DNA from: Arthrobacter crusticola
GTDB taxonomy: Bacteria > Actinomycetota > Actinomycetes > Actinomycetales > Micrococcaceae
Direction of reading: 5' to 3'
DNA length: 64,000 nucleotides
NCBI RefSeq assembly: GCF_004357995.1
Contig: NZ_SMTK01000002.1
Span: 1 to 64,000, forward strand
The notes under the pieces are model-generated. The model worked only from the letters and a program-made list of their open reading frames with translations. It did no database searches and was not told where the DNA came from. This document shows, piece after piece, positions 28,334 through 39,485 of this stretch. Every line of letters starts with the position of its first letter. The stretch's first letter is position 1. The position numbers and the translations under genes are program-made.

Positions 28334-28925
28334 CACTGCCTCCTCGATTCATTGGGATATCGGAGTGCTTGTCCACGGGACGGCCCGGTTCCGGCTGCCC
28401 TGTCCATCGACGGTGGCCCGGCCGCGCTGCGGGGTGCCAGCCTAACAGAGCCGCAATCCCGGCTGAATGCCCTCGTCACGGCTTTTTTGGCGCGCGGCGG
28501 CGGTACCGCAGCGGCACCGAATTGCCGTCCATTGGCGGTGAATAACGGTCCGGCTTTCGGCCTGCACACTGGGTCATCGACGGAATCCGGGACGGATAAC
28601 CATTCGGCGACAGGATCTACCGGGAACTTTGCGGCTCCCCGTGAATCCGATACGCTCCGGTGATCAGGTTTAATATGGGGGGATTTGGGATGATGAAATC
28701 ATCGTTTGGCGTGGCAACATCACCGCCGACCGCAACGAGTGGGTAATTACGTTTCTGCACTGCCCTTTCCGGGAAAGCCCGGCGGTTAACCGCCTGCGGC
28801 ACACGGCAGCGGCCCTTCCGCAACCCACCCTCCGCTGACTCCAGCGCTCTGCCCGCTTGCTCTGTCGCGCGCCCGGCGGTCCTCTCTGCGGTAATTCCTC
28901 CCTTCACTTTGCGCAAAAGGTATCT
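28334..28925. other. Long leader region of the L,D-transpeptidase-like gene
   Basis: 592 bases, lower in GC than its surroundings, with no long gene. It holds a promoter-like pair (28629-28656), an inverted repeat GATGAT-GAA-ATCATC (28689-28703), and nested palindromes at 28765-28794 (CTTTCC-G-GGAAAG, CCGGG-AAAG-CCCGG, then the perfect GGCGGTTAACCGCC). A short frame, GTG 28660 or ATG 28675 to TAA near 28746, could encode a 23-28-residue leader peptide. No known riboswitch class was recognised. Confidence 0.45.
28629..28656 (+). promoter_or_regulatory. Promoter TTGCGG - 16 - TACGCT
   Basis: A -35-like TTGCGG and a -10-like TACGCT are spaced 16 bases apart. The 14-mer starting at the -10 (TACGCTCCGGTGAT) recurs at 32170-32183 with one change. 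It would give a leader of about 265 bases before the gene at 28926. Confidence 0.42.
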
Positions 28926-30188
28926 ATGAAAACACGATCCGCGGGGCTGCGGACCATCGCCGCGGTACTTGCCGCGGCCGGCATACTGGGCGGCCTCCTC
29001 GTACAAGCGCCCGCGGCACGGGCCGACATTCGAGAGGCCGTCCAGGAGACGAACCCCTGCGAACGGTTGAACGCAGGCCAGGTGCTGTATCCGGGGTACG
29101 GAGCAAACCGGGTCACGTTCGCGACCACGGCCCACCGCAGCAGCAGTGGCGCCCTGGTCACCACCTGCGTGAGGTCGGGTGAGCGCTACGTGCAGGACTG
29201 GCAGAGCCCCGGAAACGTGGGGCGGAATGGGTTTCGGGCACCCGGGGTCCCAAGCGGCCACACGGCGGCGGAGTATTCCCCGACGGGCTCCTACTCGGTC
29301 ACCGAAGGCTTCGGGCTGTGGAACCCGGGCACCCGGCTCCGCTTCCGGATCCTTAACAGTCGATCCCGCTGGGGCGGCGGCGGAGAATATTCGTCCGATT
29401 ACAATCGATATTTCGAATCGACTTCCCACGACTTCCCCGACGAAGACATGTGGGATTTCGCGACGCGCCCGACTGGAGATTACCGGCAGGGCGTGGTCCT
29501 AAATTACAACAGGCCACCGGATTCACCCATCCGGGAGGGTGCCGGATTCGCAATTTTTATGCATTCGAATCCGGCGCCGACGGCGGGATGCATCGCGTTG
29601 CCTGAGGCGCTGGTCACCCGCTATCTCAAGCATGCGGTGCCCGGTGACCGGGTCATCATGGGCGCGGTGGGTGATGTCTTCACCCCCTACTCCGCTGACC
29701 CGACCGGTCCGGTCACCAGCAAATACACGGTGGCCGGTGGGCGGGTGGCGTTGGGCGGGCCCGTGGGCGATGAGGTCACGGGGCTGACGCGTGGCGGGAG
29801 TTCCCAGGATTTCGAGCGGGGGACCGTTCGCTGGTCACCGGGCGGCGGGGCGCACGTCGTCCGGGGTGCGATCCGGGGCGCCTATGACCGGTCGGGCCGG
29901 GAGCAGGGAGCCCTGGGGTATCCGACGTCGGATGAGGCGGGCGGAAACGGCGGGGTTTTCCAGACGTTCGAGGGCGGGGCGGTCTACTTCTCCCGTGCGA
30001 CCGGTGCCCGGATCTCCACGGGCCTGATCCACGACCTCTACGTGGCGGAGGCTCGGGCGGGCCGGTTGGGCTATCCGACGTCCAACCCAACTCCGATCCT
30101 CGGCGGAGTCCGCCAGGCCTTTCAGGGCGGGTCGATCACCTGGTCCCTGGCCGCAGGGATCCGGGTGGAACGGCTGCCTTCTCTGTAA
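28926..30188 (+). CDS. Exported L,D-transpeptidase-like protein with LGFP repeats
   Basis: 420 residues. A signal peptide (cleavage after ARA near residue 35) leads to a YkuD-like catalytic domain: the His in FMHSNPAPTAGCIAL near 211 and Cys near 220 match the active site, though the usual SHGC(I/V)R ending is GCIAL. From about 275 on there are three LGFP-type repeats (LGGPVGDE, LGYPTSDE, LGYPTSNP), which anchor proteins to the envelope in actinobacteria. Expected to act on peptidoglycan outside the membrane. ATG 28926 behind AAAAGG. The long structured leader suggests post-transcriptional control. Confidence 0.85.
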   Translation: MKTRSAGLRTIAAVLAAAGILGGLLVQAPAARADIREAVQETNPCERLNAGQVLYPGYGANRVTFATTAHRSSSGALVTTCVRSGERYVQDWQSPGNVGRNGFRAPGVPSGHTAAEYSPTGSYSVTEGFGLWNPGTRLRFRILNSRSRWGGGGEYSSDYNRYFESTSHDFPDEDMWDFATRPTGDYRQGVVLNYNRPPDSPIREGAGFAIFMHSNPAPTAGCIALPEALVTRYLKHAVPGDRVIMGAVGDVFTPYSADPTGPVTSKYTVAGGRVALGGPVGDEVTGLTRGGSSQDFERGTVRWSPGGGAHVVRGAIRGAYDRSGREQGALGYPTSDEAGGNGGVFQTFEGGAVYFSRATGARISTGLIHDLYVAEARAGRLGYPTSNPTPILGGVRQAFQGGSITWSLAAGIRVERLPSL

Positions 30189-30239
30189 CTTCTCGGGGCA
30201 ACAGCCAACTGGCAGGGGGGCAGCGGGCAATGGGCGGGG

Positions 30240-30947
30240 CTATTCGGCCGGTTCGATGAGGTGCGGCCCGTCGTTGCGGACCGAGCCCACTTCCTTGCCC
30301 ACGACGCGGGGGACGAGGACGGGTTCAGGGATCGCGTCGATCAGTTCCTGGACGTCCTGTTTCGAGGTCACCGCCGGATCGAGCCAGTCCGCATGGAGGT
30401 CCTTCGGGACGATCAGCGGGGAGCGGTCGTGGATGTGCCCGAGGCTGTCGGTGGCGTCCGTGGTCAGGATGGTCGCCGTGGTCAGCCACTTCTCCGGATC
30501 TCCATCCGCCTTCTCCGGATCCGGCCAGAACTCGTACAGGGCGGCGAAGGCGATCAGGTCGTCCTCCCGCTCCGGGTGGAGGTATGTGGGGGTCTTCGTT
30601 CCGTCGGGATTCTTCTGCCATTCGTAGTAGCCGTTCGCGGGCACCAGGGCCCGGCGTTTGGCGGCCGCGGTGCGGAAGGAGGGCTTGTCGAGGACCGATT
30701 CGGCGCGGGCATTGATCATCCGGGAGCCGATCTTGGGGTCCTTCGCCCATACGGGGACAAGGCCCCAGCGGGCAATGTCCAGCCGGCGGGTCAGGGTGCC
30801 ATCACTGAGTCGTTCCGAAACGAAGGGGATCCCTGTCATCGGGGCCACGTTCCAGGACGGGTTCATTTCGTCCTCGAACGACTCGTCCACGCTGAACGCA
30901 TCGAGCATTGCCGCCTTGTTTCCCGCGATCACGAAACGTCCGCACAT
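30240..30947 (-). CDS. SRAP-family (YedK/HMCES) DNA-lesion protein
   Basis: 235 residues. Met-Cys start (MCGRFVIAG) gives the N-terminal Cys2 that forms a covalent bond with abasic sites. The conserved NPSWNVAP, RWGLVPVWA, INARAES, ANGYYEW (catalytic Glu) and IHDRSPLIV (His) motifs are intact. It protects abasic sites in single-stranded DNA. ATG 30947 is fixed by the need for Cys2. Convergent with the LGFP-protein gene. Confidence 0.94.
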   Translation of the reverse strand: MCGRFVIAGNKAAMLDAFSVDESFEDEMNPSWNVAPMTGIPFVSERLSDGTLTRRLDIARWGLVPVWAKDPKIGSRMINARAESVLDKPSFRTAAAKRRALVPANGYYEWQKNPDGTKTPTYLHPEREDDLIAFAALYEFWPDPEKADGDPEKWLTTATILTTDATDSLGHIHDRSPLIVPKDLHADWLDPAVTSKQDVQELIDAIPEPVLVPRVVGKEVGSVRNDGPHLIEPAE

Positions 30948-31099
30948 GCTGCTATTGTGCCGCACTCCCCGCCCGGAGTCCGCTCCCTTCCGGTGGTGTC
31001 GAGACCGAATCGTCAGCCGTACGGCGGGCCGCCGATAAGCGGGCGTGCCCCGGCGGTAGTGTCGAGGCTCAGCAATTGCACCATCACACCCTGGGAACC

Positions 31100-32077
31100 A
31101 TGCACCTTCGTACCACGAGAGCCGCCATCCTGCTCGGGGCCGCCCTGGCCGCCGGGGCCGTCGGCTGTTCGCCCGCCCTGCAGGGCGCCCCGGCCCCCGC
31201 GCCGTCAGCGGCCGCCGCCCCGTCCCCCACCCCGACGGGCGGGGAGTCGGACGGGCCGACAGCTCCCGGCGCACCGGCCGCCCCGATGCCGCCGGCCGGA
31301 ACGGCGCTCGCAGGCCTCGAGGCGCTCCCCGTCAAGGGGCGGGCGCCGAAGACCGGATACGACCGGGAGAAGTTCGGGCCGGCCTGGGCCGACGTTGATC
31401 GGAACGGCTGCGATACCCGCAACGACATCCTTGCCACAAATCTCTCCGAGGAGAGTTTCAAGCCCGGCACCCGGGACTGCGTGGTGCAGGCCGGTGTCCT
31501 GGAGGACCCCTACACTGCGGCGACCATAACGTTCGTCAAGGGTGGGGAGGCCCTCGTCGACATTGATCACGTCGTGGCGCTGGGAAATGCCTGGGCAACG
31601 GGCGCCCAGCAGCTTTCGGACCAGGACCGGCTGCACTTCGCCAATGACCCGCTGAACCTCCTCGCCGTCGACGGGCCGGCCAACCGGCAGAAGGGCGACG
31701 CCGATGCCGCAACGTGGCTTCCGCCCAACACGTCGTTCCGGTGCGCCTACGTGGCCCGGCAGACGGCGGTCAAGCTCAAGTACCGCCTGTGGGTGACGGC
31801 CGCCGAACGAGGCGCCATTGAGCGGATTCTCAGGTCCTGCCCCGGCCAGCCGCTTCCCGACGCAACCACCGCTCCGCCCGCCGGCGCCGCCGGGGAGCCC
31901 GGGGAAACTGCGCCCACCGGGCCCGGCGGTGGGGGGAGCGTGCCGCCGGCCGGGAAGGTGACCTACGGAAGCTGCTCGGACGTAGAGGCGGCCGGCGCCG
32001 CGCCGATCACTCCGGCGGACCCGGGGTGGGATGCCTCGTTCGACCGGGACGGCGACGGTATCGGGTGCCAGTCCTAG
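31100..32077 (+). CDS. Lipoprotein HNH nuclease (DUF1524 type) with Excalibur domain
   Basis: 325 residues. Lipobox VGC in AAGAVGCSPA, then ~45 Ala/Pro-rich linker residues. The nuclease core is VDIDHVVALGNAWATG and DPLNLLAVDGPANRQKGD...TWLPP, the DHxxxL..A..N..xK pattern of DUF1524/GmrSD-C-like HNH enzymes. After a second Pro/Gly linker, the C-terminal ~35 residues (YGSCSDVEAAG, FDRDGDGIGCQ) form an Excalibur calcium-binding domain. It would cut DNA outside the cell, perhaps for nutrient use or competence. ATG 31100. Confidence 0.9.
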   Translation: MHLRTTRAAILLGAALAAGAVGCSPALQGAPAPAPSAAAAPSPTPTGGESDGPTAPGAPAAPMPPAGTALAGLEALPVKGRAPKTGYDREKFGPAWADVDRNGCDTRNDILATNLSEESFKPGTRDCVVQAGVLEDPYTAATITFVKGGEALVDIDHVVALGNAWATGAQQLSDQDRLHFANDPLNLLAVDGPANRQKGDADAATWLPPNTSFRCAYVARQTAVKLKYRLWVTAAERGAIERILRSCPGQPLPDATTAPPAGAAGEPGETAPTGPGGGGSVPPAGKVTYGSCSDVEAAGAAPITPADPGWDASFDRDGDGIGCQS

Positions 32078-32885: not shown

Positions 32886-32904
32886 TTAGGTAAGCCTTCC
32901 TCAT
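32886..32904. promoter_or_regulatory. Candidate DtxR/IdeR iron box
   Basis: TTAGGTAAGCCTTCCTCAT agrees with the consensus TTAGGTTAGCCTAACCTAA at 13 of 19 positions, with the left half almost perfect. It ends 11 bases before the GTG of the fusion gene, where a bound repressor would block transcription when iron is plentiful. Confidence 0.6.
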
Positions 32905-32915
32905 AAGGTTACGCA

Positions 32916-35465
32916 GTGACCTCGAACCTGTTCCTCACGCGTGCCTCCTTCGCCGCTGATCTCGCCCACTTCGGGGACCGCCCCGCGGTGCTGACCGAGG
33001 GGTCGACCCTCAGTTACCGTGAACTGGCCGGCCGCGTCGAGGCCTTCGCCGCCCGCCTTGGCACCCAGCGGCGGCTGGTGGCCCTCGCGGCCGCCAACGA
33101 TCTTGATTCGCTCATCGCCTACCTCGCGGCGCTCACGGCCGGCCACCCCCTCATCCTCGTCCCGGGCGACAAGCCGGCGGCCCTTGACTCCATCGTGGCG
33201 GCGTACGACCCCGACGTCGTCCTGCGCTCCGGCGGTTTTCCCTCCTTCGAGGAGCGGCGCCCCGGCACCGTGCATGAACTGCACCCCGAGCTTGCCCTGC
33301 TGGTCAGCACGTCCGGCTCAACCGGTTCCCCCAAACTGGTAAGGCTCTCCCACGAAAACCTCCAGTCCAACGCCGAGGCCATCGCCGGGTATCTTGCGAT
33401 CGGACCCGAGGACCGCGCCGCGACGACGCTGCCCCTGTCCTACTGCTACGGACTGTCGGTGATCAACAGCCACCTGCTCCGGGGGGCGGGCCTGGTGCTG
33501 ACCGACCTGTCCGTCGTCGACCCCTGCTTCTGGGAGCTGTTCCGCGCCCACGGCGTGAGCTCCTTCGCGGCCGTGCCCTACACCTTCGAGCTCCTTGAAC
33601 GGGTGGGCTTCGCCGCCCTTGACCTTCCTTCCCTGCGGTACGTCACCCAGGCCGGAGGCCGGCTCGCGCCCGAGCAGGTGCGCCGGTACGCGGCGCTCGG
33701 CTCTGAGCGCGGCTGGGACCTGTTCGTCATGTACGGTGCCACCGAGGCCACGGCCAGGATGGCCTACCTTCCCCCGGACCTTGCGGCCTCCCACCCGGGC
33801 ACCATCGGCATCGCGGTGCCGGGCGGGGCCTTCCGTATCGACCCGGTGCCCGGGCTCGATGACGGCGAACTCGTGTACACCGGCCCGAACGTCATGCTCG
33901 GCTATGCCGAGGTGCCGGCCGATCTGGCGCTGGGCCGGACCGTTGAGGAGCTGCGCACCGGGGACCTGGCGCGCCGGCACCCCAACGGCCTGTACGAGGT
34001 GGTGGGGCGGCGCAGCCGGTTCCTCAAGATCGTCGGACTGCGCGTCGACCTCGGCCAGGTTGAACGGATTCTCGACGGCCTCGGTGTGCGCGCCCTCAGT
34101 ACCGGAACCGACGAGCGGCTCGTGGTCGCGGCCGAGGGCGGAGCCGATGTGAGGCTGCTCGGCAAGGTCCTCGCCCAGCAGTTGGGGTTGCCCCGGGCCG
34201 CCGTCGAGGTTCACGGCGTCGATCGGCTCCCGCGCCTGTCCAGCGGAAAACCCGATTATCCAGCTGTGCTCGCCCTGGCGGCGGCATCGGTAGGGGCGGT
34301 GCAGGAGGAGCCCTCTGCCGGGGACGGCCCGGAGGACCTTCGAAGGATCTACGCTGAACACCTTGAGTGCGGCGCCGTCCGGGACGAGGACACCTTTGTC
34401 TCCCTCGGCGGAGATTCGTTGTCCTACGTGGCACTGTCGGTCCGGCTCGAAAAGGTCCTTGGTGCCCTTCCGGCCGACTGGCACCTGATGCGGGTCGGGG
34501 ACCTCGCCCGGCCGGCCCGGAAGGCATACCCGGCGCGGCGCTTCCTCGCCCCGCTCGAGACGAGCATCGTCCTGCGCGCCGTCGCCATCATTTTCATCAT
34601 CAGCACCCACGTGGGCTTGTTCACGTGGCCGGGAACCGCCCATGTGCTGATGGCCGTGGCCGGTTACAACTTCGCCCGGTTCCAGCTCGCGGGGGAGCGG
34701 GTTGCCCGCCTGCGGCGCCAAATACGGAGCCTCGGACGGATCGTGGTGCCCAGCGTGGCCTTTATCGCCTTTGCCTACCTGGTGACCGACCGGTACTCCC
34801 TGGCGAACATCGCGCTCCTGAATTCGCTGATCGGGCCCCGGCACGTGACCGCGGAGTGGCAGTTCTGGTTCGTCGAGGTGCTCGTGTATGTCCTGATCTT
34901 CCTGCTGGCGCTGCTCGCGCTTCCGTGGGTGGACCGGGCCGAGCGGGCCGCACCGTTTGCCTTCCCGCTCGCCCTGACGGCCCTCGGCATGCTGGGCCGC
35001 TACGACCTCCCGCACATCAGCGTCCCGCACACCGCACCGGTGCTGTGGCTCGTTGGCCTGGGCTGGCTGATGGCCCGGTCCCGGACCACCCTCCAGCGGG
35101 CGGTAGTGACGGTCATCGCGGTGCTGAGCGTGCCCGGCTTCTTCGATGACGCGGCACGCGAAGCGACCCTGCTCGGAGGGCTCCTGCTGCTGACCTGGCT
35201 TCCTGCCATCCCCCTGCCGCGCCGGCTCCACCGACCGGTCGGGGTCCTTGCCAGTTCCTCGCTGTATGCCTACCTCACCCACTGGCTGGTCTTTCCCCTG
35301 CTGGAGCCCTTCAGTCCTGCGCTCGCAGTGGGCGCCTCGTTGGCCGCCGGCGTGGTGTACTGGGCCCTGACGCAGCGCATTGTAGGCGCAGCCGGCCGAG
35401 TCAGGGCGCGCCGGGCACCGGGGCCTCGCAAGGCCCCCGTAACGGAAACGGCGTCCACCCGCTAG
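32916..35465 (+). CDS. Adenylation - carrier - membrane acyltransferase fusion, 849 aa
   Basis: One polypeptide with three parts. Residues ~1-450 are an AMP-forming adenylation domain: P-loop STSGSTGSPKLV (~130), MYGATEAT (~271), RTGDLA (~346), GRRSRFLKIVGLRVD (~365-380) and the A10 lysine in SSGKPDY (~441). Residues ~465-535 are a carrier domain with the phosphopantetheine serine in LGGDSL (~499). Residues ~545-835 carry about ten transmembrane helices in an acyltransferase-3-like arrangement with a conserved His (IISTHVG, ~564). It should load an acid or amino acid on the carrier and pass it to a membrane or exported acceptor, as DltA-DltC-DltB do with three proteins. GTG 32916 start, iron box upstream. 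Substrate and acceptor unknown. Confidence 0.88.
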   Translation: MTSNLFLTRASFAADLAHFGDRPAVLTEGSTLSYRELAGRVEAFAARLGTQRRLVALAAANDLDSLIAYLAALTAGHPLILVPGDKPAALDSIVAAYDPDVVLRSGGFPSFEERRPGTVHELHPELALLVSTSGSTGSPKLVRLSHENLQSNAEAIAGYLAIGPEDRAATTLPLSYCYGLSVINSHLLRGAGLVLTDLSVVDPCFWELFRAHGVSSFAAVPYTFELLERVGFAALDLPSLRYVTQAGGRLAPEQVRRYAALGSERGWDLFVMYGATEATARMAYLPPDLAASHPGTIGIAVPGGAFRIDPVPGLDDGELVYTGPNVMLGYAEVPADLALGRTVEELRTGDLARRHPNGLYEVVGRRSRFLKIVGLRVDLGQVERILDGLGVRALSTGTDERLVVAAEGGADVRLLGKVLAQQLGLPRAAVEVHGVDRLPRLSSGKPDYPAVLALAAASVGAVQEEPSAGDGPEDLRRIYAEHLECGAVRDEDTFVSLGGDSLSYVALSVRLEKVLGALPADWHLMRVGDLARPARKAYPARRFLAPLETSIVLRAVAIIFIISTHVGLFTWPGTAHVLMAVAGYNFARFQLAGERVARLRRQIRSLGRIVVPSVAFIAFAYLVTDRYSLANIALLNSLIGPRHVTAEWQFWFVEVLVYVLIFLLALLALPWVDRAERAAPFAFPLALTALGMLGRYDLPHISVPHTAPVLWLVGLGWLMARSRTTLQRAVVTVIAVLSVPGFFDDAAREATLLGGLLLLTWLPAIPLPRRLHRPVGVLASSSLYAYLTHWLVFPLLEPFSPALAVGASLAAGVVYWALTQRIVGAAGRVRARRAPGPRKAPVTETASTR

Positions 35466-37145: not shown

Positions 37146-39485
37146 ATGCGCGACTCTTTCGCGACATCCGCCCTTACCCGCCGTGTTGCAAGCGCAGTGA
37201 TCCTGCCGGGCATCCTGACAAGCGTGCTCGTCTTCGCCCCGCAGGCGTCGGCGACGACCGGCCCGACTTCGGGTATCTGCAACGGTGTGGTCAATCAGCA
37301 GGCGCACCGCGGAAGCGTGCAGGAAAACCTCCTCCGGGCCGCCGCCAAGAAGAACGCCGAGCAGATCACCAAGCTGCAGACCGAGCGGACCCAGCTTCAG
37401 GCGACCGCCGCCGCCCTCACGTCCCAGATCGTCGAGGCCGATAAGGCGATCGCCGCCCTCGACACCGAGGCCGCGCAGCTAGACCTCGATATGAAGGATG
37501 CCGAAGCGGAAATTGCGGCGCTGACGGCGGATCAGGCGAGCACCGGCAAGTCGATCCAGGAAGCCGAAGCGGCCCTGGCTGGCCTCAAATTGCAGCAGGC
37601 AGACGCCTCGGCAAAGCTGGTGCCCCTCCAGGAACAGCTGGCTGCCGCACAGGAAGCCACAGCCACCCTGCAGGAGCAGGCCGCGGCTGTCGACGCCGAC
37701 CTTGCCGTCAATCGGGAGGCGGCCGACGCCGCCGCCGAGGGGTTGGCCCTGCTCGAAGCGACGGCCGCCCAGGCAACCGGTGAGCTCGATGCACAGAATG
37801 ACGCAATCGCCGCCGCCGAGGCTGCACTCGTTTCACTGACCACAACTGCGGAGGATGCCGCCGCCGCGGTGGCGGCCGCCACGCAGGCCATCACCGACGC
37901 GGAGGCGGAACTCCAGCACCTCGTGGACTCCGGCACCGCAGCCCAGGCCGACCTCGATGCCCAGATGGCCAAGATTGACGAGGCGAAGACCAACCTCGCC
38001 ACCCGCCAGGCCGACGCCGAGAAGGCAGCGGACGCCGTCACCGCGAAGAACGTCGAGATAAACACCGCACAGGGCCAGCTCACAGCACTTCAGGCCGATG
38101 CACAGAAGGCGGCGGACGCGGTCACCGCGAAGAACACTGAGATCGCTGCCGCACAGAATCAGCTTCCGGCCCTGAAGTCCGCCGCCGCGGATGCGGCCAA
38201 TGCGGTTGACGCCAACAACGCTGCCATCACTTTGGTTGGCGGGCAGATCACGAAGCTCCAGCAGGACATCGATGCAGCCACGTCTGCCATCTCAACCAAG
38301 CAGGCCCAACTGACGAAGGCGAAGGAGGAGCTGGCGGCCGACCAGAAAACGAAGTCGGCCCTGGAGGCGGTCATTGCGGACCTCACGGCCCAAATCAATG
38401 CGTTCAACGGCAACGGCACACCCCCCAGGAAGCAGGCATTGATCGACCAGCGCGCCGAGAGGCAGGCCCAGCTGACCTCGGTGACAAACCAGATCACCGA
38501 CAAGAACACGTTGATCTCCGGCCTGCAGGGTAATCTCACCACGCTCCAGAACCAGGTCAACGCACTCAACACCCAACTGGCTGCCAAGCAGGGCGAGAGC
38601 AGCGCCCTGCAGCGGCAGACGGCTCCACTGCAGGCCGCGCTGACCGCGGCCCAGGGAGCTGTCGCCACCAAGGAAGCGGAAATCCTGACCCTCCAGGGCC
38701 AGCTGCCCGCCCTTGGAACGGCTCTGACCGAGGCCAACGCCGCGGTGGCTTCCAAGCAGGGCGAACTGACTGTCCTGGAGGCGAAGCTGCCGGCCCTCGA
38801 GGACGCTGCAGCCGCCGCCGCCGGTGCCGTGAGCGCCCAGGAGAAGGTCGTCGCCGACCTCGAAGCGGGCCTGCAGGCCCTCACCGAGGGCGTCGCGGAG
38901 GCCGGGGCGGCCATCGCCGCCCAGCGGGTGGCGCTCGAGGATCGGCGGGGGGACCTAGCGGAGGCCGAGGATGCGCTCGAAGCTGCGGCTGCGGCCGTGG
39001 ACGCCAAGAACGCAGAGCTTACGGGCCTGAAGGACCGGCTGCCAGCGCTCCAGGCTTCGGCGGACAGCGCTGCTGCGGCCGTGACTGCCAAGCGGAGCGA
39101 GATCGCGAAGCTGAATGCCGATATGGACAAGCTCGTGACGGACCTCGCGGCGCTGAACGGGCAGCTCACCGCCAAGGAGGCCGAGGTCCTCGGGCTCCAA
39201 AACCGGGTGGCTCCGCTGCTGACCCAGTTGAACAGCCTCAATGGGGAGATCAGCGCTGCGGAAGCAGCCCTCAAGACCCTCCAGGGCCAGCTGACCACCC
39301 TCGACAAGCAGGTCACCGATGCCCAGGCGGTCCTTCGGAATCTCGAGGCGCAGAAAAAGGTGAATACGGCGGCCGTCGCGGCCCAGCGGGCCACAGTGAA
39401 GTCGCTGGGGGACCAGCTGGGAGCCGTCCAGTCCAAGATCCGCTCCATCGATGCGCAGATCGCGCCCGGTGGCTGCGTCGCCTGA
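37146..39485 (+). CDS. Exported giant coiled-coil protein, 779 aa
   Basis: A signal peptide (cleavage near ASA-TT, residue 36) leads to a nearly uninterrupted Ala/Glu/Gln/Leu/Lys-rich coiled coil from about residue 60 to 770. There is a clear 28-residue (four-heptad) periodicity: DAEKAADAVTAKN and DAQKAADAVTAKN start neighbouring units, and PAL...AAV..K..EL units recur later. The only break is NAFNGNGTPPRK in mid-rod. The only two cysteines are Cys45 (SGICNG) and Cys777 (GGCVA at the end). There is no LPXTG, LysM or membrane anchor. RBS CAGGAG. Function unknown; a rod of about 100 nm outside the membrane is expected if it is a continuous coil. Confidence 0.85.
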   Translation: MRDSFATSALTRRVASAVILPGILTSVLVFAPQASATTGPTSGICNGVVNQQAHRGSVQENLLRAAAKKNAEQITKLQTERTQLQATAAALTSQIVEADKAIAALDTEAAQLDLDMKDAEAEIAALTADQASTGKSIQEAEAALAGLKLQQADASAKLVPLQEQLAAAQEATATLQEQAAAVDADLAVNREAADAAAEGLALLEATAAQATGELDAQNDAIAAAEAALVSLTTTAEDAAAAVAAATQAITDAEAELQHLVDSGTAAQADLDAQMAKIDEAKTNLATRQADAEKAADAVTAKNVEINTAQGQLTALQADAQKAADAVTAKNTEIAAAQNQLPALKSAAADAANAVDANNAAITLVGGQITKLQQDIDAATSAISTKQAQLTKAKEELAADQKTKSALEAVIADLTAQINAFNGNGTPPRKQALIDQRAERQAQLTSVTNQITDKNTLISGLQGNLTTLQNQVNALNTQLAAKQGESSALQRQTAPLQAALTAAQGAVATKEAEILTLQGQLPALGTALTEANAAVASKQGELTVLEAKLPALEDAAAAAAGAVSAQEKVVADLEAGLQALTEGVAEAGAAIAAQRVALEDRRGDLAEAEDALEAAAAAVDAKNAELTGLKDRLPALQASADSAAAAVTAKRSEIAKLNADMDKLVTDLAALNGQLTAKEAEVLGLQNRVAPLLTQLNSLNGEISAAEAALKTLQGQLTTLDKQVTDAQAVLRNLEAQKKVNTAAVAAQRATVKSLGDQLGAVQSKIRSIDAQIAPGGCVA

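Follow-up and report, generated by a model that had tools for sequence, protein, structure and literature searches.

A 64,000-nucleotide stretch of the genome of the soil bacterium Arthrobacter crusticola (contig NZ_SMTK01000002.1, positions 1 to 64,000), here called the window, encodes a protein in which an adenylation domain, a carrier domain and a membrane domain follow one another in a single chain, with a DtxR/IdeR-like iron box upstream (Table 1). A preliminary description made from the sequence alone had read this 849-residue protein as an adenylation domain, a carrier with an LGGDSL motif and an acyltransferase-3 (AT3)-like membrane domain, and matches to PF00501, PF00550 and PF01757 bore this out. 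PF00501 matched the adenylation domain with an E value of 2e-45, and the adenylation motifs were intact with Lys445 in place; the ligase part also matched Aas-type NCBIfam families, far below their cut-offs. The carrier scored 24.1 bits with PF00550 (cut-off, 20.8). The membrane domain of the window protein reached 25.9 bits with PF01757, below the cut-off of 31, yet the assignment is firm at the family level despite this weak score, since 36 of 38 aligned family members match PF01757 (E value, 0.001); all 38 match PF00501 and PF00550. The window genome has no second full-length copy, and three other places match part of the adenylation (A) or A-carrier region. A second A-carrier region of this genome (L116, G000:C2:643898-645139; 31% identity) lies inside a 1411-codon open frame, possibly an NRPS-like gene. 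An antisense open frame of 654 codons inside the gene (33318-35282, minus strand) is probably a high-GC artefact.

Table 1. Features of the locus (positions are those of the window)
Feature	Positions	Strand	Remarks
DtxR/IdeR-like iron box	32886..32904	+	Ends 11 bases ahead of start codon; 13/19 to the assumed consensus
Single-chain adenylation-carrier-AT3 protein, 849 aa	32916..35465	+	GTG start; best 80 relatives match nearly whole length
Adenylation domain, ~residues 12-455	32949..34280	+	PF00501; STSGSTGSPK loop, Cys177, Arg281, Lys445
Carrier domain, LGGDSL	34323..34505	+	PF00550 above cut-off; phosphopantetheine site Ser501 at 34416-34418
AT3/TmAT membrane acyltransferase domain	34560..35414	+	PF01757; Arg554 and His565 (34608-34610) form R-X10-H

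A structure model of the AT3 domain (pLDDT 91) contains the ten-helix TmAT fold. A second structure aligner matched it to the HGSNAT/GWT1 fold, with HGSNAT as the best solved match; Foldseek returned no match for this model at an E value of 0.001. The portions seen of two sources (PMC9833829, PMC12423673) describe for AT3/TmAT enzymes an R-X10-H motif whose His lies in the first membrane helix, and Arg554 and His565, which form this motif on TMH1, were invariant in all 38 aligned members. These matches are to acyltransferases. The earlier proposal that DltA-, DltC- and DltB-type steps are combined in one chain is retained for the predicted Dlt-like working order but not for the membrane part, which is AT3/TmAT and not DltB. 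For the RxxR of TMH3, an Arg pair at columns 605 and 608 was present in 0 of 81 sequences and Arg608 in 80 of 81; an R-x-x-R in an earlier register of the same helix (601/604) was found in the window protein and some relatives, and one canonical AT3 of the window genome (L145) is likewise without a clean RxxR on TMH3. Loss of RxxR as a mark of a carrier donor was rejected, since such an Arg pair is found elsewhere in the helix, in a different register.

Alignment to PltF, VinN and LgrA placed Cys177 at the position of the Asp that binds the amine in adenylation domains activating amino acids, and this position was Cys, Ser, Thr or Ala across 22 relatives compared. The pocket stretches of the window protein (YCYGLSV, AVPY, TQAGGRL and MYGATEATAR) were kept with small changes among these 22, from Arthrobacter to Rhizobium and in relatives consisting of the A domain only; a 23rd compared row, an unrelated ligase beside an A-only relative, did not share them. 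Because Asp is absent at position 177 and the pocket is conserved in relatives, an alpha-amino acid appears an unlikely substrate, and one common acid is likely for the whole enzyme family. Where an acid or an amino acid had both been envisaged, the carboxylic acid reading is thus retained and the alpha-amino acid is disfavored. Calling the substrate itself from the pocket was rejected, the pattern being conserved but with no characterized twin. A full-length structure search returned EntE-EntB first, which shows the A-carrier type and not the substrate. Arg281 aligns with an Arg of VinN that has a role in carboxylate binding; the Arg281 motif recurs in A-only relatives, including one next to LuxE-type genes, and this hints at a simpler acid. 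The carrier Ser501 was invariant in 38 of 38 aligned members.

When the same domain order was looked for in other genomes, as had been proposed, the adenylation-carrier-AT3 fusion proved common across Actinomycetota, and orphan homologues occur in Alphaproteobacteria. Relatives are encoded in 389 stretches of genome contigs (E value, 1e-3), the best 80 of which are treated here as near relatives; genes around them were called with a simple composition script, and neighbor sizes are approximate. Two contigs of one Arthrobacter metagenome-assembled genome (JAHFUZ01; L054 and L061) each carry a family gene, which may reflect paralogues or strain mixing. Matches were also found in 242 plasmid records, of which 53 cover at least 80%, and 12 regions of such records were opened. 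Most plasmid records listed with full-length matches are annotated plainly as "AMP-binding protein," so routine annotation hides the role of the family. Five full-length alphaproteobacterial homologues, from Rhizobium, Sinorhizobium, Shinella, Leisingera and Paracoccus (L130, L135, L136, L137 and L141), lie on plasmids or chromids and share ~36-42% identity.

Iron boxes were scored against a 19-position consensus that we take to represent the DtxR/IdeR box, and with a matrix built from 43 distinct sites of relatives, the window and its closest kin (L005 and L006) excluded. Under this matrix the window box ranked first of 63,982 window positions, with 17.6 bits against 11.1 for the next. In the same genome, a site by a FecB-type gene scored 18.0 and that by its own FbpABC genes 13.2. 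A DtxR/IdeR-type regulon very likely exists in the window genome, since stronger boxes (up to 29.9) adjoin genes for FecB, FecCD and partner ATPases, identified by reading their open frames.

By consensus score, a box of at least 14/19 lay just upstream of the family gene in 53 of 81 loci (the 80 near relatives and the window) versus 24 of the 1433 other genes predicted in these loci, an enrichment whose Fisher value is overstated because the loci are related. Among these 24, the 15 scoring at least 15 all occupy positions -1 or -3 relative to the family gene, and are either genes on the FbpA side or divergent genes with which it shares a spacer. The score was 13 in seven of the 81 loci, including the window, and below 13 in 21. 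In 20 loci where the enzyme follows FbpABC on one strand and FbpA was recovered, 14 scored below 13 at the enzyme, and 13 of these had at least 13/19 ahead of FbpA (the exception, L049, had 11); the other six (L037, L045, L052, L058, L063 and L064) scored 13-15 at the enzyme itself. Five loci (L005, L006, L035, L054 and L079) had a box below 13/19 and no adjacent FbpABC to account for it. A box of at least 14/19 was present in 9 of 18 distant loci, where box positions rest on estimated starts and L113 is without its gene start. The best sites in plasmid regions were 13-15/19 in four actinobacterial and 9-11/19 in five alphaproteobacterial ones, and none of at least 12/19 of the DtxR type was found in these five. 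The box that had been placed right before the start is therefore upheld, as far as sequence conservation can tell, as a conserved operator, and the gene is predicted to be under DtxR/IdeR and made when iron is short.

The gene adjoins those for the ferric-iron importer FbpABC in 27 of 80 near relatives; in L069, at a contig end, FbpB and FbpC only are seen. The order ABC-then-enzyme was found in Arthrobacter, Pseudarthrobacter, Paenarthrobacter, Kocuria and Actinotalea, and a divergent arrangement in Streptomyces and Micromonospora. Among 18 distant loci (all 14 nonself matches of a phylum genome sample and the 4 most distant of 19 nonself matches of a family sample), 7 had FbpABC: three as enzyme-ABC, three as ABC-enzyme and one split around the enzyme. 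In the stretch examined, the other 53 near relatives and the other 11 distant loci showed no FbpABC, which counts against the best explanation given below. FbpABC adjoins the gene in three of the four full-length actinobacterial plasmid regions opened, those of Rhodococcus opacus, R. fascians and Mycolicibacterium chubuense, whose neighboring genes are independently annotated as parts of an iron ABC transporter; the Pseudarthrobacter plasmid carries the family gene without FbpABC neighbors. In these Rhodococcus and Mycolicibacterium plasmids (L131, L132 and L133) the enzyme-FbpABC cassette is itself plasmid-borne. The cassettes of L132 and L133 adjoin cadmium-resistance, P-type ATPase, LspA and TlpA-like genes, with arsenic genes in L132, and that of L131 adjoins an MMPL transporter, ctaD and a CopY-type regulator.

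FbpABC is present in the window genome but on another contig, where its box is no more than weak; in the window's genus, the four other carriers from the family sample have FbpA on the gene's own contig, ~5 kb away. A candidate FbpC in the window near 7.2 kb was rejected as a sugar-type ABC ATPase by reading. The FbpA of L046 matches the solved ferric-binding protein 7li0 (E value, 2e-87) and that of the window genome matches 1xvx YfuA (E value, 1e-122); these are different types, and tblastn scores assign the FbpA of each distant locus that has one to either type. The FbpA proteins of L046 and L071 show a lipobox and are presumably lipoproteins. On a 70-row tree, FbpABC adjacency required nine changes, at least seven of them forced by starred branches; the tree was made by a quick method from 70 of 106 rows, with long branches flagged. 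In the Micrococcaceae sample, FbpA (E value, 1e-20) was found in 20 of 20 carriers versus 7 of 20 noncarriers, the latter being the 20 listed among 129 genomes without a match (p 1e-5, kinship ignored). FbpABC has been reported in some Frankia strains, and the portion of that source seen describes no such partner gene (PMC4531530).

In the five alphaproteobacterial homologues, no FbpABC was found beside the gene in the stretches opened. As these homologues are without FbpABC and a DtxR-type box, and an A-only relative lies beside LuxE/LuxC-type genes, the chemistry may predate the iron role or be independent of it, and iron may be the actinobacterial setting of the enzyme rather than its chemistry. 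That A-only relative, from Ponticoccus (L138:4975-11873), is accompanied by a carrier, an SDR, an acyl-protein synthetase (LuxE-type) and an acyl-CoA reductase (LuxC-type), a possible acyl-reducing pathway.

Around the gene in the window, no siderophore cluster was identified among ten open frames tested, in agreement with the preliminary description. Upstream (28857-32077) lie a protein that combines LGFP repeats with a YkuD L,D-transpeptidase domain, and a GmrSD_C/Excalibur protein. At 37146-39485 is a 779-amino-acid coiled-coil protein whose matches are all SMC-like and whose place near the gene is conserved in L005 and L006. Further shared neighbor clusters occur mostly among close kin, and few are annotated. 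Ten neighbors tested in distant loci revealed no common pathway, those of L104, L108 and L120 having no Pfam match and the other seven all differing.

The best explanation, to which we assign an even chance as a whole, is that the gene encodes a one-protein, iron-repressed transmembrane acylation enzyme, which would place a carboxylic acid on its own carrier and transfer it outside to give a product that helps FbpABC take up Fe(III). Judging from its domain type, the adenylation domain would convert a common carboxylic acid without a recognized alpha-amine to the acyl-AMP, and the acid would then be loaded on the phosphopantetheine at Ser501. Because the phosphopantetheine arm of a carrier is chemically the arm of CoA, it could occupy, instead of acyl-CoA, an OafB-like cavity that the AT3 domain opens to the cytosol; fold and motif suggest that His565 may then assist acyl transfer to an outer-face acceptor. 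Such a cavity is described for OafB in the part of the source seen (PMC9833829). Under DtxR/IdeR control the enzyme would be made during iron shortage, like FbpABC, whose lipoprotein sits on the same outer face. The acylated product, surface-bound or released, might then bind, solubilize or release Fe(III) for pickup by FbpA.

Activation, carrier loading and transmembrane transfer are, taken jointly, probable, and an iron role of the enzyme is equally so; that the product makes Fe(III) available to FbpA is tentative. A narrower version, in which an iron-binding acid is fed through the AT3/TmAT pore from the enzyme's own carrier and planted outside as a one-gene "surface siderophore" that hands Fe(III) to FbpA, seems somewhat unlikely. 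Further points count against the best explanation: FbpABC lies on another contig in the window genome, some loci have neither a box of 13/19 nor adjacent FbpABC, the alphaproteobacterial homologues are without both, the full-length structure model has a low pTM of 0.51, which bears on docking of carrier to pore, and acyl-CoA is the published AT3 donor in the text seen (PMC9558356), where the fused carrier points to another donor here. Overall, the observation in the preliminary description is confirmed and its interpretation supported in part.

A Dlt-like envelope modification, in which an acyl group on a wall or membrane polymer alters charge or porosity under iron shortage and aids iron uptake only indirectly, is unlikely but deserves most attention among the alternatives. 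AT3/TmAT enzymes mostly acylate surface glycans, according to the sections seen (PMC9558356, PMC12423673), the same fusion occurs in Alphaproteobacteria without adjacent iron genes, and a glycosyltransferase follows the gene in L084. Against it stand the recurrence of FbpABC beside the gene, in various gene orders and with FbpA of two kinds as judged by tblastn scores, and the lack of any further cluster holding a constant position in distant groups, although most clusters are unannotated and a polymer gene could be missed.

Somewhat less probable is a one-enzyme synthase of a diffusible siderophore or lipid chelator, in which the acid, coupled to a small acceptor on the outside, would itself serve as iron ligand. 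The three annotated plasmid regions hold no biosynthetic gene beside the four-gene cassette, the family-wide pocket conservation is as expected for one common metabolite, and the alignment of Arg281 with the VinN Arg is consistent with it; however, no chelator structure is derivable, and the Arg motif of the A-only relatives points to a simpler acid.

It is less likely still that the enzyme acylates, during export, a siderophore made elsewhere in the genome. The iron box and the EntE-EntB match of the A-carrier part would suit such tailoring, as would IucA/IucC in 10 of 20 carriers, but these were found in 5 of 20 noncarriers (p 0.19) and are not clearly enriched, and a search of the window genome for IucA/IucC, the only siderophore genes sought there, identified none. 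The partner importer is also FbpABC, which takes ferric ion, and not the FecBCD type, which carries siderophores. Finally, a chance box before a gene unrelated to iron, which the window score of only 13/19 and the 12 of its closest kin (L005 and L006) might suggest, is very unlikely at the family level given the enrichment in 81 loci, the 9 of 18 distant loci, the first rank in the window and the FbpABC linkage.

No description of the single-chain combination, its iron box or its FbpABC tie was found in the open-licence full-text literature, nor any paper there on a fourth gene partnering FbpABC, consistent with the earlier remark that a described system of this design was not known. The parts are known. 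The AT3 fusions named in the excerpts seen are with SGNH, alanine racemase and unspecified others in Eukarya (PMC9558356, PMC9833829). A carrier-fed AT3 would be new, and to our knowledge the first carrier-fed TmAT enzyme, because the AT3 donor is held in the part seen to be acyl-CoA and not ACP (PMC9558356); the family would also test whether AT3/TmAT pores accept a carrier-bound acyl group. If the narrower version above is true, a single membrane enzyme paired with FbpABC would provide a route of iron acquisition that has not been described before. The association of the gene with iron-uptake genes and an iron box in many relatives hints at a way of supplying cells with ferric iron that has been little explored. 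The conserved, iron-box-bearing fourth gene, with a product expected to act on the outer face, makes it testable how Fe(III) stays available outside cells without an outer membrane.

Among known systems, the FbpABC/FutABC/SfuABC importers are neighbors of the enzyme family in many actinobacteria. The AT3/TmAT enzymes OafB, OatA, HGSNAT and GWT1 share the TmAT fold and the R-X10-H motif with His in the first membrane helix, whereas here acyl supply would fall to adenylation and carrier domains within the enzyme itself. NRPS loading modules and A-carrier pairs (EntE-EntB, PltF-PltL and VinN) have the same A and carrier domain types, but the enzyme has no condensation or thioesterase domain, its next domain being a membrane acyltransferase. 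Aas-type acyl-ACP ligase/acyltransferase fusions resemble it in joining an AMP ligase to an acyltransferase, although they pair the ligase with a non-AT3 acyltransferase and lack the carrier and AT3. Closest in working is DltABCD, which D-alanylates teichoic acids through adenylation, carrier loading and a membrane acyltransferase acting across the membrane, with a carrier phosphopantetheine serine common to both (Ser501 here). Dlt, however, uses three or four proteins rather than one chain, an MBOAT (DltB) rather than AT3/TmAT and an amine-binding Asp for D-Ala where Cys177 stands here, and the window has an iron box and no DltD among the ten open frames tested; the enzyme would work in the manner of Dlt without belonging to that system.
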